Shown one piece after another: positions 5,406-11,498 of a stretch of 64,000 nucleotides of DNA; position 1 is the stretch's first letter, and each line of letters starts with the position of its first letter. The notes below the pieces were generated by a model. It was not told the origin of the DNA. It was given only the letters and a program-made list of their open reading frames with translations, and did no database searches. This stretch comes from Rhodothermales bacterium (GTDB taxonomy: Bacteria; Bacteroidota; Rhodothermia; Rhodothermales; Bin80): NCBI GenBank assembly GCA_022821385.1, contig JAJEDR010000077.1, positions 62,001 through 126,000 on the forward strand. The letters are read 5' to 3'. Made by a program: the position numbers and the translations under genes.

Positions 5406-7274
5406 CTAGTTTGAGGCATCCATCCTGCTTTTCAGGCGATCAATAATTGCTTGGCTACTTTCTCGCTCTGCTTGATCTATCCCTGCACGCACTCTAGCTA
5501 TCTGTTCTGCAGTTGCCCCCTGGTTACGCTCCAATTGATCAACATGTGCACGGGCAAGAGCAAAGGACGGCGGCCACTTGTATGTCGGCTGTCCCTGAGC
5601 ATTCTTGTACTCCAATTTTACAGTATTCGCTGCAGCAATTTCATTAGCGGTCAGAAACTCGCTGGGAACAAGCTCAAATACATCCAGGCCACGTGCAATC
5701 TCACTGCTGTAAATGTAGCCGTTGTACCAGTAGACAGACCAGCTTCCTCCCATCTCCATCTGCTCAGCACTCACAGGACCACGGTCATGGTATGCAATCT
5801 CTATCACATTGGACGGATCTGTCCAGTCGGTAATTGAAATACCTCCCTGATACCAGGATTGGACAAATATATCCCGACCGGGCACAGGGATCTGGGACCC
5901 GTTATGTGCTACGCAATTTTCCTCGTCCGTCTGTGGTACGGGCAACTTGTAATAGCCCTTGAAATGCATCTTCTTCTCTTCATCAATCGTGAAGTATGCA
6001 TTTGCTCCCCACTCCATTGGATCTGTGTCACGGCACTTGGGTCCTCCACCTCCACCCCATTCATCCGTGAATAGGATTGTTGATCCGTCATTATTAAACG
6101 TTGCCGAGTGCCAGTAAGAGAAGTTGCTGTCTGCAACCGCATCAAGGCGATATGGATTGGCCGGATCAGAAATATCAAGGAGGAGGCCGTATCCTTCACA
6201 CGCACCACCTGCTAAGCCGATCTCAGGGTATAGCGTGATGTCATGACACTGATTGGGACCTCGATCTTCATCAGCTCCATCACCCCCACCGATCATCTGA
6301 GCAATGATATCTGGTAGCGCCTCGCGAAATGCCACCGTATCCTCGGCAGTCGGTTCCGTGATGCCCTCTTCGCTAAAGTAGGCCGCAGCCATTGGGGCTA
6401 CGTAGTTTTCTGGCAGTATAAAAGAAGAACCACCAATTGAAACCACAAACTCTCCCCGTGCCTTTGCCGCTTCAAACTCGGCTCTCTCTGCGTCTGTAGG
6501 ACCATGTACCGGCGGGGCGGTCAGGTCCTCAAAGATTCTTGGTGAACTCACGATTGCTGCCTCTTGGGGGTTATCCAGAGGAACCTGGATGACTTCAATC
6601 CGGAAGAGTGCAGACTCGGGGTCCTCACTGGGAGACATGCTTGAGCATCCCGGCAATTCTTCCGCGGGTCTCACTGGGGCTGATCCAGAAACATAAATGT
6701 AGACGTTTTCGTCGTCATCGGGATCTTTGAGAAGCGAGTGCGTATGTGAGCCTCGACAGGTCTGAACATTATGGATGTACTGCGGGTCACGTACATCGGT
6801 AATATCGAAGATCCGGATTCCCCGCAGCCGGTCGTGACTGATACTCTCTTGTACACCCTCAGTACCGCAATCAAGTCGACCGCCCGTACCTTCACCTGAA
6901 ACAAAAAGCAGGTTCCCGTACACTGAAACGTCACTCTGCGAGGCTGGACACAGGTAATCTTTTGCCAGCACGGGATTGCTGGGATTTGATACATCCCAGA
7001 TCAAAATACCGTTATAGTTGCCCTGGAACACATATTGATCCTTGAAGGCCAAGTCACTGTTGGTGACACCAACAAAGGTTTCCGGGGGCAAAACGGTTGC
7101 GACTTTGCGCAAATTCCAGATGGCTTCCTCCGCATCAAAAAGCCCGGCTTCAAGACCAATGCGGGGATCCTCCATGACCATCTCTTGGGGGGTGAAATCT
7201 TGCGCTGTACTCACCGCAGGTCTGATTATAACAGACGTCAGGAATGCGGCAATCAACAGGTATTGTAGTTTCAT
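5406..7274 (-). CDS. Secreted LVIVD-repeat seven-bladed beta-propeller protein
   Basis: A 622-residue protein from the ATG at 7274. A Sec signal peptide (MKLQYLLIAAFLTS..., ending near AQD at 25-27) puts it in the periplasm or outside. The frame continues upstream to 7331, but that would add 19 residues before the signal and run into the preceding gene. Repeats ending in IxDxSxPxxP or a variant mark about seven propeller blades of the LVIVD type. Four blades carry His at the matching first-strand position: HTH at 177-179, CHD at 343-345, WHS at 388-390 and AHN at 456-458. That pattern suggests a metal or cofactor site at the central pore. A helical insertion sits at about 255-330. No enzymatic function is established for this family. 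It follows the DUF305 gene by 31 bases. Confidence 0.8.
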   Translation of the reverse strand: MKLQYLLIAAFLTSVIIRPAVSTAQDFTPQEMVMEDPRIGLEAGLFDAEEAIWNLRKVATVLPPETFVGVTNSDLAFKDQYVFQGNYNGILIWDVSNPSNPVLAKDYLCPASQSDVSVYGNLLFVSGEGTGGRLDCGTEGVQESISHDRLRGIRIFDITDVRDPQYIHNVQTCRGSHTHSLLKDPDDDENVYIYVSGSAPVRPAEELPGCSSMSPSEDPESALFRIEVIQVPLDNPQEAAIVSSPRIFEDLTAPPVHGPTDAERAEFEAAKARGEFVVSIGGSSFILPENYVAPMAAAYFSEEGITEPTAEDTVAFREALPDIIAQMIGGGDGADEDRGPNQCHDITLYPEIGLAGGACEGYGLLLDISDPANPYRLDAVADSNFSYWHSATFNNDGSTILFTDEWGGGGGPKCRDTDPMEWGANAYFTIDEEKKMHFKGYYKLPVPQTDEENCVAHNGSQIPVPGRDIFVQSWYQGGISITDWTDPSNVIEIAYHDRGPVSAEQMEMGGSWSVYWYNGYIYSSEIARGLDVFELVPSEFLTANEIAAANTVKLEYKNAQGQPTYKWPPSFALARAHVDQLERNQGATAEQIARVRAGIDQAERESSQAIIDRLKSRMDASN

Positions 7275-7305: not shown

Positions 7306-7950
7306 CTAGTGCGCACCTTTGAGGCGACCAAGCATCATGCGCATGCGGTCAATCTCTGTGACTTGGTCAACATGTATATCCGTGGCCAGCTTGTAGGTAT
7401 CGTCGCCTGTGACCGCTCCGTCTACCTTCAGGAGCTCTCTAACCATAAAAACGGCCCCTTCGTGGTGCATTATCATGTACTCAAGGAATAATCGATCAAA
7501 ATCGACTCCCTTGGCAGTTTCAAGTTCGTCAAGTTGTTCTTTGGAAAGCATGCCCGGCATATGTAACGCATGATGGTCATCGACGCCATGAATCATAAGA
7601 GAACTGCCTTCTATCATCACGTGAGGAACTGGCTGACCACGCTTGCGCAACCAGCTCTGCATGATGCGTATCTCGTCATTCTGTGCGTTAATAATCCGGG
7701 CTGCCAAGGTTTGAATTGCGGGGCTTGCGTTATTACTTTCGGCAAAGGCTGACATAATCAGGGCCTGAGCATGATGTCCGATCATGCCGGTCATAAAATC
7801 AACATCTGCCTGGGAAAAGCGTGCGAGCGCACTATCCTTGCGTGCCCAGTAGAGTGCTTCCAGGTCTTCGGTATCCTGAGATATCACCGGGCCCACGGTG
7901 CACATGCCGATCAACAGAACGCAAATGAACCCGATCGGGCGCTCAGCCAT
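7306..7950 (-). CDS. DUF305 domain protein, secreted
   Basis: A 214-residue protein with a signal peptide (MAERPIGFICVLLIGMC..., ending near ISQD). I chose the ATG at 7950; the open frame reaches 8130 but would overlap the end of the upstream gene by over 100 bases. The DUF305 (ferritin-like four-helix) signatures are clear: DFMTGMIGHHAQALIMS in the first half and FLEYMIMHHEGAVFM in the second, with His-His pairs that could bind metal. DUF305 proteins are periplasmic and are often found near copper or other metal-handling genes, but their activity is not established. The gene sits 53 bases after the large outer-membrane protein and 31 bases before the LVIVD propeller gene, so these are probably coexpressed. 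Confidence 0.87.
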   Translation of the reverse strand: MAERPIGFICVLLIGMCTVGPVISQDTEDLEALYWARKDSALARFSQADVDFMTGMIGHHAQALIMSAFAESNNASPAIQTLAARIINAQNDEIRIMQSWLRKRGQPVPHVMIEGSSLMIHGVDDHHALHMPGMLSKEQLDELETAKGVDFDRLFLEYMIMHHEGAVFMVRELLKVDGAVTGDDTYKLATDIHVDQVTEIDRMRMMLGRLKGAH

Positions 7951-8003: not shown

Positions 8004-11000
8004 TCAAAAGGTTGCTGACAATTGCATTCGCACAGTATGAATCTGGGGGGCATCTTGTGGACTCCGCCCTGTATAGGACACGGTCGCACGCAGAACGCTG
8101 TTTAACTGAATCCATCCACTTAGGCGCCACAAGAGGGAACTTCCCTTACCTCTGCCGTCCGTAAGCTCAAACAAGGCAAGCCCGGCTGAACCCTTGCTGT
8201 CTTTCAGGTTCACATTTGCAAGTTCAAGAGTAGCATTAACATTTGCTCGCCGCGCCCTACTCCATGAGCCTTTTATAGGGAGTTTTACAATTGTAGCTGA
8301 AACTCCCGTTTCACCATCCTTCCGTGAATAATCCGGGCTTACAGATAACCTCAGATCCTGCGTTATCCCTAACTGGATTTCCTGCGTAAACGATCGTGTT
8401 TGAATATCGAATTCCCTTGACTTGAAAGTGTCACTCCTGTTAATTTTGCTTGAAGAGCTACCCCCGGACTTAAAGGCCCACATCTCTCCGAGCCTCCATC
8501 GTATCTGAATACGGAAATCATCAATGCTTCTCATCTCTGCACCGGCAGCAAGCTTGCTGGCTGAACGAATTCTTCGCCAGGAAGCCTCAAGACCATACCG
8601 AGGGTTATTGCGAAACAACCACAAGTCCTGCGTAAGGTTGAGCACTCCACGGATAGAGTACTGCGGATGCCGGAAGTTCCGCTGTCGCAGAAGGTAGATA
8701 TCTGCCGGGTCGGGTGCTTCATTCTTTTCATTTACCTCCACCGCGGTCCGCAGCGCAACCTGACTCAACCATCTTTTCCATTTTTCCGGTGCATCCTGCC
8801 AACGCTGTCCATTATCAAATTGGATATTGAAACGGGCCTTTAGGCCAGTCACCGACTGCAGCGAATCCGATGGTATGAGCGTACGTGCATAGTTTCCTTC
8901 GTCCTGCGTTACTTCGGGAATGAATTCATCAATTTCACGAATTCCATTACCGTTGGAATCTACCCAGGTATATTCACCAAGTTCGGGACCAGTGCGAATA
9001 TAGATTTCCTGCTGTACGGGCGTTTGTTCGGAGAGCGCTTCATAGAACCAGTTCAGTCTGAACAATCGCTTCCATGGCTGTAGGCGTCCATTCCAACGGA
9101 GAACCAGTGATCGCTCGTTCGTTAGCCCTTGGGTAGTTTGAAAAAATTTCGAGTACTTCGTGTGTTGCCAACCTAATCGCCCCTCACTTCGGAAGGAACG
9201 CCTACTGTTCGCGGTGTATTGCAGGCTGGTTGTAGCTCGCCGTCTGCCAGGCAGCAGTTGATGATCGGTCCATAAATGCTCATCACGCCAATCAAAACTT
9301 GATGATAGTGTCCCCCAATTACCGGTCCACTCGGCGGTAGGAGATACTTGCCAGTACTCTCGCGAATCCTGTCGCAGCCCTTGGGGTACAAGTTGTCGGC
9401 GGTTACTGGCTTTGAATCGCGTAGTCAAGGCGACACGTCCATCAATCAGCGACTTCTGAAGTTGTGCATTGTGGCGAACCCAGTTACCCTGGATTAACTC
9501 TGATTCGCTCTCAATAACTGTAAAAAAGTAGTTTAGGCTGGGTAAGCGCCGCTCATTAATCGTTAGTTCCAGTACCCGTCTGTTACCACTAAATACCCCT
9601 GACTGACGAAGGCGGCCAAGTGTGCCGGTTACCGAAGATTCGTCAGAGAATTTCCAGGCAATAGTTGCCTCATCAATGGATTCTTGATGTGCCCTTACAA
9701 GATTACGATCAAGCGGGAGATTCCAGGAACGCACAAACTCAATCGGCTGAACACTGTCAAATGTGGCAAAGTTTTCACCTGTGAGCCGTCGCTCAAGAAC
9801 AACCATGGCTGTGCCTACCCCGACCGGTAAATCCATGACTTGCAGCCGGCCGTGATAACTATGGGCCCGATCGTCTGCCGCATCAAGGGAGGAGAATCGG
9901 TTTTCGTCGCGGAACGACTGCGCCCATTCGCCAGATAGTTTGACATAACGTATTGGTGCAAAGCTTCCGCGCAAATCAAGCATACGCTGTTGCCTGGGCT
10001 TCGGCAAGATGCGAATAGGCAAATACTCGCCTTGCCCTGGTCCCCGATAACTGTATGTGATTCCATTCGTGGTCTGTCCTTGCCGGACGTAGTCTCCCGC
10101 CCCGGGGCCTACCCGAGTGAATTCAACCCTGAACACCTGCCCCTGTGATGCCCGTGTGATCGGAGTGTAGATACGATACAGATTGCCCGATACTGTGGTG
10201 TCCCGAAGTTCATAGTGGACCCATGGCGCGTCAGGGTCATACGTCACGGATGTTGCACCGCTGCGTGATGCCTCCTGATCCCCCAGTGTTGTTAGAAGAT
10301 CCCTGTCAGCGGTCGTAAGTCCAAACTCCTGATCAAATGATTTGCCGTCAGCTTCCCTGATGAATGTAACTCCGAATGTAGCAAAGGACGGCCCCAACTC
10401 ACGCTCTCCCGCTGAAAAATCTGCTTCAGAGGCTATAAGCGTACGGGTGAATTCTGTGGTTCTATACTGAAATTCCACTGCGACGCGGTGATGGGATTTC
10501 ATCAACCGGTTCGTAGTAAAGGATACTTCGCCAGTGGCATAGTCAATCACATAGTCCTGTGATTCTCCACGGGTTAAAAGATTGCCATCCAAATAAACAG
10601 ATTCAGATCCTGGGATTACTAGAATAAATGGTTCATTGGCGTTTCCTTGCAGCCGGTAGGGACCCTGGACGCCGTCCTTGATTTTGATATCCTGCGTTTT
10701 GAACAGTCCGCGGGATGTAGCCGCAGCCATACGCATTATTCCCCCCAGTCTCCCGGACGGAGAAGGTGTTGTGATTCCAACACCTTGAATCTTCCGATTT
10801 AGCTGTGCGAAGGTGCCGCTGTTGAGTTGCAATCCGAAATCGCCCAGTTGGGCTGAACTGAATGGCGTGTCAATTTCAATAAACACACGATCAAGCTCGC
10901 TGAGTCGCTGTGTTGTGCCTTCGGGGAGAATAGGGGTATTCTCGTCCGTTAAGACTGCCCGCAGGTTTATATCCGGTGCCAGTGCCCCCGACATTTGCAG

Positions 11001-11498
11001 GCGCAGCCCTGACTCAATAGTTGCATCGCGATTGTTACCGGCAATTATCCCTCGTGTAATGGATCCACTCCGCCTTATTTGGAGCGGAGCCTGCACGGTC
11101 TCTGGTTTGTCTGGCTCAGCCACAATCGATGAGTCTGTCTCTATCGGAGGCTCAAGAATTCTTGTGTATCGGTCCGGCAGACCCAAATCCCAAATTTGAT
11201 AGACTGCGATTGCCGTATCGCTTGGGGCGATGGACGGTATCCACAGACGGCCAAACCGGGCATCCAGACGGTAATCACTGGAGTCCAGTGCAGCACCTTG
11301 CACTTCGACTATTAACGTGCCGGGTACAATGAATGGACGCAGTATGAAGGGCTGTTCCCCCGTCAAGATGTCTGCCCGGGCCTGCGAATTTTGCGCAAAC
11401 GCGTGTGATGACCATAGCGGCGCGCACAGGCAGCATATGGATAGTAATCTACTGAGGTGAGTACTCCAGGGGCGTTTCTGATCCTGCCTAACTGCCAA
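8004..11498 (-). CDS. Very large outer-membrane beta-barrel protein (uncharacterised)
   Basis: A 1164-residue protein with an N-terminal signal peptide (hydrophobic core LLSICCLCAPLW, cleavage near AFAQ at 33-36). The N-terminal ~400 residues look like small beta domains. A conserved-looking core around residues 145-245 contains GIIAGNNRDATIESGL, DENTPILPEGTTQ and QLGDFGLQLNSG, a pattern I associate with uncharacterised surface proteins of Bacteroidota, Ignavibacteria and relatives. The C-terminal ~600 residues alternate polar and hydrophobic or aromatic residues, and the last residues, VRMQLSATF, end in Phe as BAM substrates do. The frame opens at TTG 11498 only two codons after an in-frame stop, and no ATG precedes the signal peptide, so TTG is the only credible start. 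It overlaps the TPM gene by 11 bases. Function unknown; a secretion or surface-assembly role is possible. Confidence 0.75.
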   Translation of the reverse strand: MAVRQDQKRPWSTHLSRLLSICCLCAPLWSSHAFAQNSQARADILTGEQPFILRPFIVPGTLIVEVQGAALDSSDYRLDARFGRLWIPSIAPSDTAIAVYQIWDLGLPDRYTRILEPPIETDSSIVAEPDKPETVQAPLQIRRSGSITRGIIAGNNRDATIESGLRLQMSGALAPDINLRAVLTDENTPILPEGTTQRLSELDRVFIEIDTPFSSAQLGDFGLQLNSGTFAQLNRKIQGVGITTPSPSGRLGGIMRMAAATSRGLFKTQDIKIKDGVQGPYRLQGNANEPFILVIPGSESVYLDGNLLTRGESQDYVIDYATGEVSFTTNRLMKSHHRVAVEFQYRTTEFTRTLIASEADFSAGERELGPSFATFGVTFIREADGKSFDQEFGLTTADRDLLTTLGDQEASRSGATSVTYDPDAPWVHYELRDTTVSGNLYRIYTPITRASQGQVFRVEFTRVGPGAGDYVRQGQTTNGITYSYRGPGQGEYLPIRILPKPRQQRMLDLRGSFAPIRYVKLSGEWAQSFRDENRFSSLDAADDRAHSYHGRLQVMDLPVGVGTAMVVLERRLTGENFATFDSVQPIEFVRSWNLPLDRNLVRAHQESIDEATIAWKFSDESSVTGTLGRLRQSGVFSGNRRVLELTINERRLPSLNYFFTVIESESELIQGNWVRHNAQLQKSLIDGRVALTTRFKASNRRQLVPQGLRQDSREYWQVSPTAEWTGNWGTLSSSFDWRDEHLWTDHQLLPGRRRATTSLQYTANSRRSFRSEGRLGWQHTKYSKFFQTTQGLTNERSLVLRWNGRLQPWKRLFRLNWFYEALSEQTPVQQEIYIRTGPELGEYTWVDSNGNGIREIDEFIPEVTQDEGNYARTLIPSDSLQSVTGLKARFNIQFDNGQRWQDAPEKWKRWLSQVALRTAVEVNEKNEAPDPADIYLLRQRNFRHPQYSIRGVLNLTQDLWLFRNNPRYGLEASWRRIRSASKLAAGAEMRSIDDFRIQIRWRLGEMWAFKSGGSSSSKINRSDTFKSREFDIQTRSFTQEIQLGITQDLRLSVSPDYSRKDGETGVSATIVKLPIKGSWSRARRANVNATLELANVNLKDSKGSAGLALFELTDGRGKGSSLLWRLSGWIQLNSVLRATVSYTGRSPQDAPQIHTVRMQLSATF

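Follow-up and report, generated by a model that had tools for sequence, protein, structure and literature searches.

Sb-PTE is a phosphotriesterase with the fold of a seven-bladed propeller, in which Glu201, His389, Glu407 and His475 hold a binuclear metal centre. This protein, the haloalkylphosphorus hydrolase of Sphingobium sp. TCM1 (PDB 5HRM/5IOJ), is the nearest solved structure by sequence and fold to the propeller protein analysed here. Metal centres are also described in other propellers. In the SBP56 methanethiol oxidase (MtoX), copper is assigned to four His and the operon carries an SCO1 chaperone gene (PMC5739008), and mutants have been made in the SBP56/SELENBP1 family (PMC10362175); nitrous oxide reductase carries the CuZ centre in its propeller and has the chaperone NosL (PMC6530538). 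The carotenoid cleavage dioxygenases bind Fe(II) by four His in a propeller (PMC8191317), and AztD, a propeller of eight blades, holds zinc on three pore His and passes it to a partner (PMC6689063). As for DUF305 proteins, CopM of Synechocystis is a periplasmic copper-binding protein with two HH motifs (PMC4335983).

The window, namely the whole stretch of 64,000 nucleotides of Rhodothermales DNA that was analysed, carries a propeller gene and a DUF305 gene side by side:

5406..7274, minus strand: LVIVD-type seven-bladed propeller gene, 622 aa, with a Sec-type signal-like N-terminal segment and eight invariant Cys
7306..7950, minus strand: gene of a CopM-like DUF305 protein, 214 aa, with two HH motifs (Pfam, CopM structure match, neighbourhood counts)

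The propeller ORF reads from an ATG at 7274 to a stop at 5406, and the Pfam scan of its product found one above-threshold LVIVD repeat (PF08309, residues 73-107, 29.7 bits against a gathering threshold of 20.2, E 3.9e-7) and nothing else. Judged by its sequence, the propeller protein is secreted or extracytoplasmic.

AlphaFold2 reached a pLDDT of 36 from single-sequence input, which was replaced by a family alignment of 75 sequences, and the resulting model has seven blades with a pLDDT of 85.3 and a pTM of 0.85. The first strands of blades 1-7 lie in the model at residues 72-78, 116-119, 180-182, 344-349, 388-393, 456-462 and 511-517. Because these first-strand positions correspond when the blades are superimposed by the strand list, D74, D115, H179, H344, H389, H457 and W512 are considered equivalent and form the ring, the codons of which are located as follows, together with those of a conserved acidic pair:

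7053..7055, minus strand: D74, ring position of blade 1 (model, conservation)
6930..6932, minus strand: D115, ring position of blade 2 (model, conservation)
6738..6746, minus strand: H177-T178-H179, blade 3, with H179 as the ring residue (sequence, model, conservation)
6240..6248, minus strand: C343-H344-D345, blade 4 (sequence, model, conservation)
6105..6113, minus strand: W388-H389-S390, blade 5 (sequence, model, conservation)
6060..6065, minus strand: D404-E405, end of the second strand of blade 5, with E405 aligning to Sb-PTE E407 (alignment, conservation)
5901..5909, minus strand: A456-H457-N458, blade 6 (sequence, model, conservation)
5739..5741, minus strand: W512, ring position of blade 7 (model, conservation)

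The original prediction had described about seven blades, four of them with His at the same place of the inner strand and the others with Ser/Asp or Trp, and this arrangement is reproduced by the model: the motifs HTH 177-179, CHD 343-345, WHS 388-390 and AHN 456-458 are exactly at these residues, the His-bearing blades are 3-6, and the remaining ones present D74 (blade 1), D115 (blade 2) and W512 (blade 7). The possibility that the His would be placed on outer strands was also checked, and in the model H179, H344, H389 and H457 instead open the innermost strand of four consecutive blades, an assignment made by strand order and homology. Propeller geometry would bring the four His together at one point. 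With 11 His among the 622 residues, the chance of at least four His at seven chosen positions is about 2e-6, or about 2e-5 after correction for 12 registers. The model further shows a long insert with helices at about 203-340 in blade 3, after its second strand, and helices C-terminal to the propeller.

The four ring His are identical in all 142 relatives, down to 52% identity, so that the conservation expected of them across the family is borne out; the same invariance (142/142) holds for H177, D345, D404, E405, N458, D74, D115 and the eight Cys, while H147, H168, H437, H496 and H577 vary. Within the HTH motif, H179 is the ring residue and H177 is not common to the wider family. At 175 of the 622 positions conservation is at least 99%. 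The core is conserved far more strictly than a mere adhesion repeat would be, and this reading of LVIVD was ruled out. A second subfamily (L141:5129-6922, with matches in L142-L150), 54-58% identical, has no helical insert (about 217-300 in the profile) but still has every ring residue and a DUF305 neighbour. Some Bacteroidota and Gemmatimonadota records (L039, L044, L048 and L070) contain two to four propeller genes in tandem, and the copies possibly serve different substrates. Viral contigs yielded no propeller relatives, and the viral fold library returned general propellers as the sole matches.

The conserved core extends to the choice-of-anchor-B propellers (TIGR04312). The propeller scores 57.3 bits and its relatives 65-73 bits against TIGR04312, under the NCBIfam cut-off of 100, and the profile-profile match between the two families is strong (E 1.9e-20 and 2.2e-14); by these sequence comparisons, the LVIVD propeller family is a sister of choice-of-anchor-B and not a member of it. 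Among 40 choice-of-anchor-B proteins, H157, H204 and H258 are present in 40/40 and H312 in 39/40, with a gap in the remaining one, and D205, D273 and E274 are conserved too. These residues, as H157, H204-D205, H258, D273-E274 and H312-N313, align to H179, H344-D345, H389, D404-E405 and H457-N458 of the propeller, such that the core of four His with the HD, DE and HN pairs that characterizes choice-of-anchor-B is present in the propeller family, and 24 residues are conserved in both families, including the four ring His, D345, D404, E405, N458 and W512. Since the same residues align between the two families, the His core predates the LVIVD propeller family. Therefore the original prediction of a His ring as a feature of this family stands as to the presence of the ring, but the core is wider and older than the family; likewise the four His are part of the conserved core, but they are not the whole of it, as it also contains the acids D345, D404 and E405. 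While the propeller type and the His/HD/DE/HN core are shared, choice-of-anchor-B differs in its set of Cys and in its neighbourhood, with a DUF305 neighbour in 0/19 loci with enough room; therefore the site does not generally need DUF305. The source genome itself (G000, contigs C23, C36, C58, C68 and C92) encodes eight choice-of-anchor-B propellers with the same His core.

The link to Sb-PTE is more distant. It is the best fold match of the propeller (5hrm, E 8.9e-14, with WD40 propellers next at 1.5e-9), 5hrm and 5ioj are the only credible sequence relatives in the PDB, weak but at the top when searched from the propeller family, and the choice-of-anchor-B profile matched Sb-PTE alone in the PDB (E 5e-7). 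A global alignment of the propeller family with Sb-PTE failed, and a local low-threshold alignment and a bridge through choice-of-anchor-B worked. By direct local alignment, Sb-PTE H389 and E407 align to propeller H389 and E405, and through the bridge Sb-PTE H475 and H258 align to H457 and H179; because Sb-PTE H389 is shifted by four residues in one alignment of the bridge, the two H389 residues are paired on the strength of the direct alignment and of their location in the same blade. In a 583-aa orthologue on a Sphingobium plasmid, positions 201, 389, 407 and 475 are E, H, E and H. Thus three of the four presumed Sb-PTE ligands have aligned counterparts (H389, E405 and H457), whereas no Glu equivalent to E201 of blade 2 was found in the propeller family, and the propeller is therefore not assigned as a phosphotriesterase. 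The proposal that a metal site is plausible accordingly keeps its footing in the invariant ring and in the positions shared with Sb-PTE, but loses some of it at the Glu201 position. Other differences from Sb-PTE are an identity of 12% in the fold alignment, a score of its orthologue under the LVIVD threshold, and annotated neighbours of the plasmid orthologue that include no DUF305 gene. The orthologue lies on a conjugative Sphingobium plasmid near IS6100 and is annotated as hypothetical, and Novosphingobium RL4 has an unannotated relative 50% identical to it (L191:1766-3517 and L192).

The DUF305 gene lies directly upstream of the propeller gene on the same strand, with its likely start at 7950 and its end 31 bases before the propeller gene. 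The neighbour had been described as a His-rich DUF305 protein, and indeed its 214 aa include 11 His, and 16 Met as well. The protein scores 134 bits against Pfam DUF305, above the threshold, and matches CopM structures (E 7.6e-12); the two HH motifs in a Met-rich context, as in CopM, are present as H61H62 and H164H165 with M55, M58, M68, M161 and M171, conserved in 56-57 of 57 sequences (L001 numbering). Unlike CopM, it is tied to the propeller instead of copRS, and it reaches 82.9 bits against a NCBIfam CopM cut-off of 90; therefore its metal could differ. The pairing extends far beyond this locus: of the loci from public genomes that have enough upstream DNA, 60/68, 54/54 and 8/8 carry a DUF305 gene immediately upstream in the same orientation, the three sets overlapping partly because the two collections share some genomes. 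Of the eight strict misses, seven do have a DUF305 gene, overlapping an over-extended ORF or beside another copy, and the one miss with no DUF305 gene in its stretch is L025. Among 59 related genomes, 41 have both the propeller family and a full-length DUF305 protein and 18 have neither (41/41 vs 0/18; Fisher 1.5e-15, with shared ancestry ignored), two of the 18 containing short DUF305 pieces; the source genome has one propeller and one full-length DUF305 protein. The propeller and DUF305 genes are thus a near-universal two-gene unit, in which DUF305 is a fixed partner rather than a chance neighbour.

Compared with the copper propellers, SBP56/MtoX/SELENBP1 has the same seven blades, four His proposed for copper and an adjoining copper chaperone gene (PMC5739008, PMC10362175), but its chaperone is SCO1/SenC with MauG, not DUF305, and its His are in HH and HxxH motifs; the Pfam scan gave no SBP56 family match in the propeller, and SBP56 was not among the best 50 fold matches. 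Nitrous oxide reductase likewise has its copper centre in a propeller of seven blades and is served by a periplasmic chaperone of its own, NosL (PMC6530538), whereas no sequence match between it and the LVIVD propeller was found and the latter has no cupredoxin domain. AztD resembles the propeller in a pore metal site built of His (PMC6689063), but has eight blades, three pore His and zinc, and works with a zinc ABC transporter.

Based on these findings, we propose that the propeller is probably a metal-dependent, likely copper, enzyme, because four invariant pore His occur with a near-constant CopM-related neighbour. The fuller form of this proposal, which we consider probable, is a secreted metalloprotein binding metal by the four His and E405, most likely copper supplied by DUF305, and most likely catalytic. 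The propeller would be made together with its dedicated CopM-related DUF305 protein, which would bring the metal, most likely copper, to a site where the central channel opens on one side of the propeller; there H179, H344, H389 and H457, one from each of blades 3-6, would bind it and E405 and the nearby acids D345, D404 and D115 would assist. The metal-loaded site would then most likely catalyse a redox or hydrolytic reaction on an extracellular substrate. More tentatively, and with some doubt, the two genes may form an undescribed copper system, in which a CopM-like loader and a four-His(+Glu) centre serve a novel copper-enzyme reaction, in Rhodothermota/Balneolota-type Bacteroidota and Gemmatimonadota.

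Other functions could be proposed for the same residues. The site could be that of a Sb-PTE-like hydrolase with a binuclear centre of the Mn/Zn/Fe type, DUF305 being otherwise employed, e.g. in copper protection; the solved structure closest to the family is that of a phosphotriesterase with a propeller fold, and H389, E405 and H457 align to its presumed ligands, but the Glu201 equivalent is absent, four His are richer in N ligands than the two His and two Glu presumed for Sb-PTE, and copper is what the constant DUF305 partner suggests, which makes this reading unlikely in our estimate. That the pair would merely exchange metal, the propeller acting as a carrier or scavenger and not as an enzyme, has its precedent in AztD, which hands zinc from three pore His to a partner (PMC6689063), and DUF305/CopM handles metal itself (PMC4335983). 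However, no transporter gene is widely recurrent beside the pair, and conservation of at least 99% at 175/622 residues seems beyond the need of a simple carrier site, so that we regard a carrier as distinctly improbable. Finally, propellers often have conserved polar residues between blades, and Asp stands at the same place in blades 1 and 2, as would be seen if the ring His were metal-free hydrogen-bonding residues at blade starts; yet their conservation is asymmetric, is kept across about 25% identity with the HD, DE and HN partners, and coincides with positions where Sb-PTE presumably places its metal, and a purely structural role is very improbable.

Of the open-licence papers searched, 19 mention LVIVD, none with a title on a LVIVD metal site and several with the letters in another sense; none mentions 'choice-of-anchor B', and among those listed for pairs of the key terms there is no pairing of DUF305 with LVIVD. 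As judged from this literature, a propeller metal centre with a dedicated chaperone is a known principle, while the LVIVD propeller family, the ligands it uses and its association with DUF305 appear to be new. For the LVIVD and choice-of-anchor-B propellers, hitherto annotated by repeats or sorting tails alone, a metalloprotein function with specified ligands can now be predicted, and DUF305, so far associated chiefly with copper resistance, is given a constant client, such that a testable role is offered for two kinds of protein previously without one. If copper is confirmed, the protein would stand beside SBP56 and nitrous oxide reductase as a propeller that houses copper and has a chaperone dedicated to it, apparently of separate origin.

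Across 80 loci, DUF305 is found in 57, and apart from it neither a redox partner nor a pathway gene was found to be conserved beside the propeller; PQQ dehydrogenase, DUF1080 and a nucleoside symporter occur in 4-10 loci each, and because of this low recurrence a conserved role for them was ruled out. Upstream of the DUF305 gene, the window contains at 8004-11498 on the minus strand an ORF of 1164 aa with no Pfam match, which is seen again in about 10 loci. Elsewhere in the window, at 700-2853 on the plus strand, lies the gene of a PQQ-type alcohol dehydrogenase that has a cytochrome c domain inserted in it.
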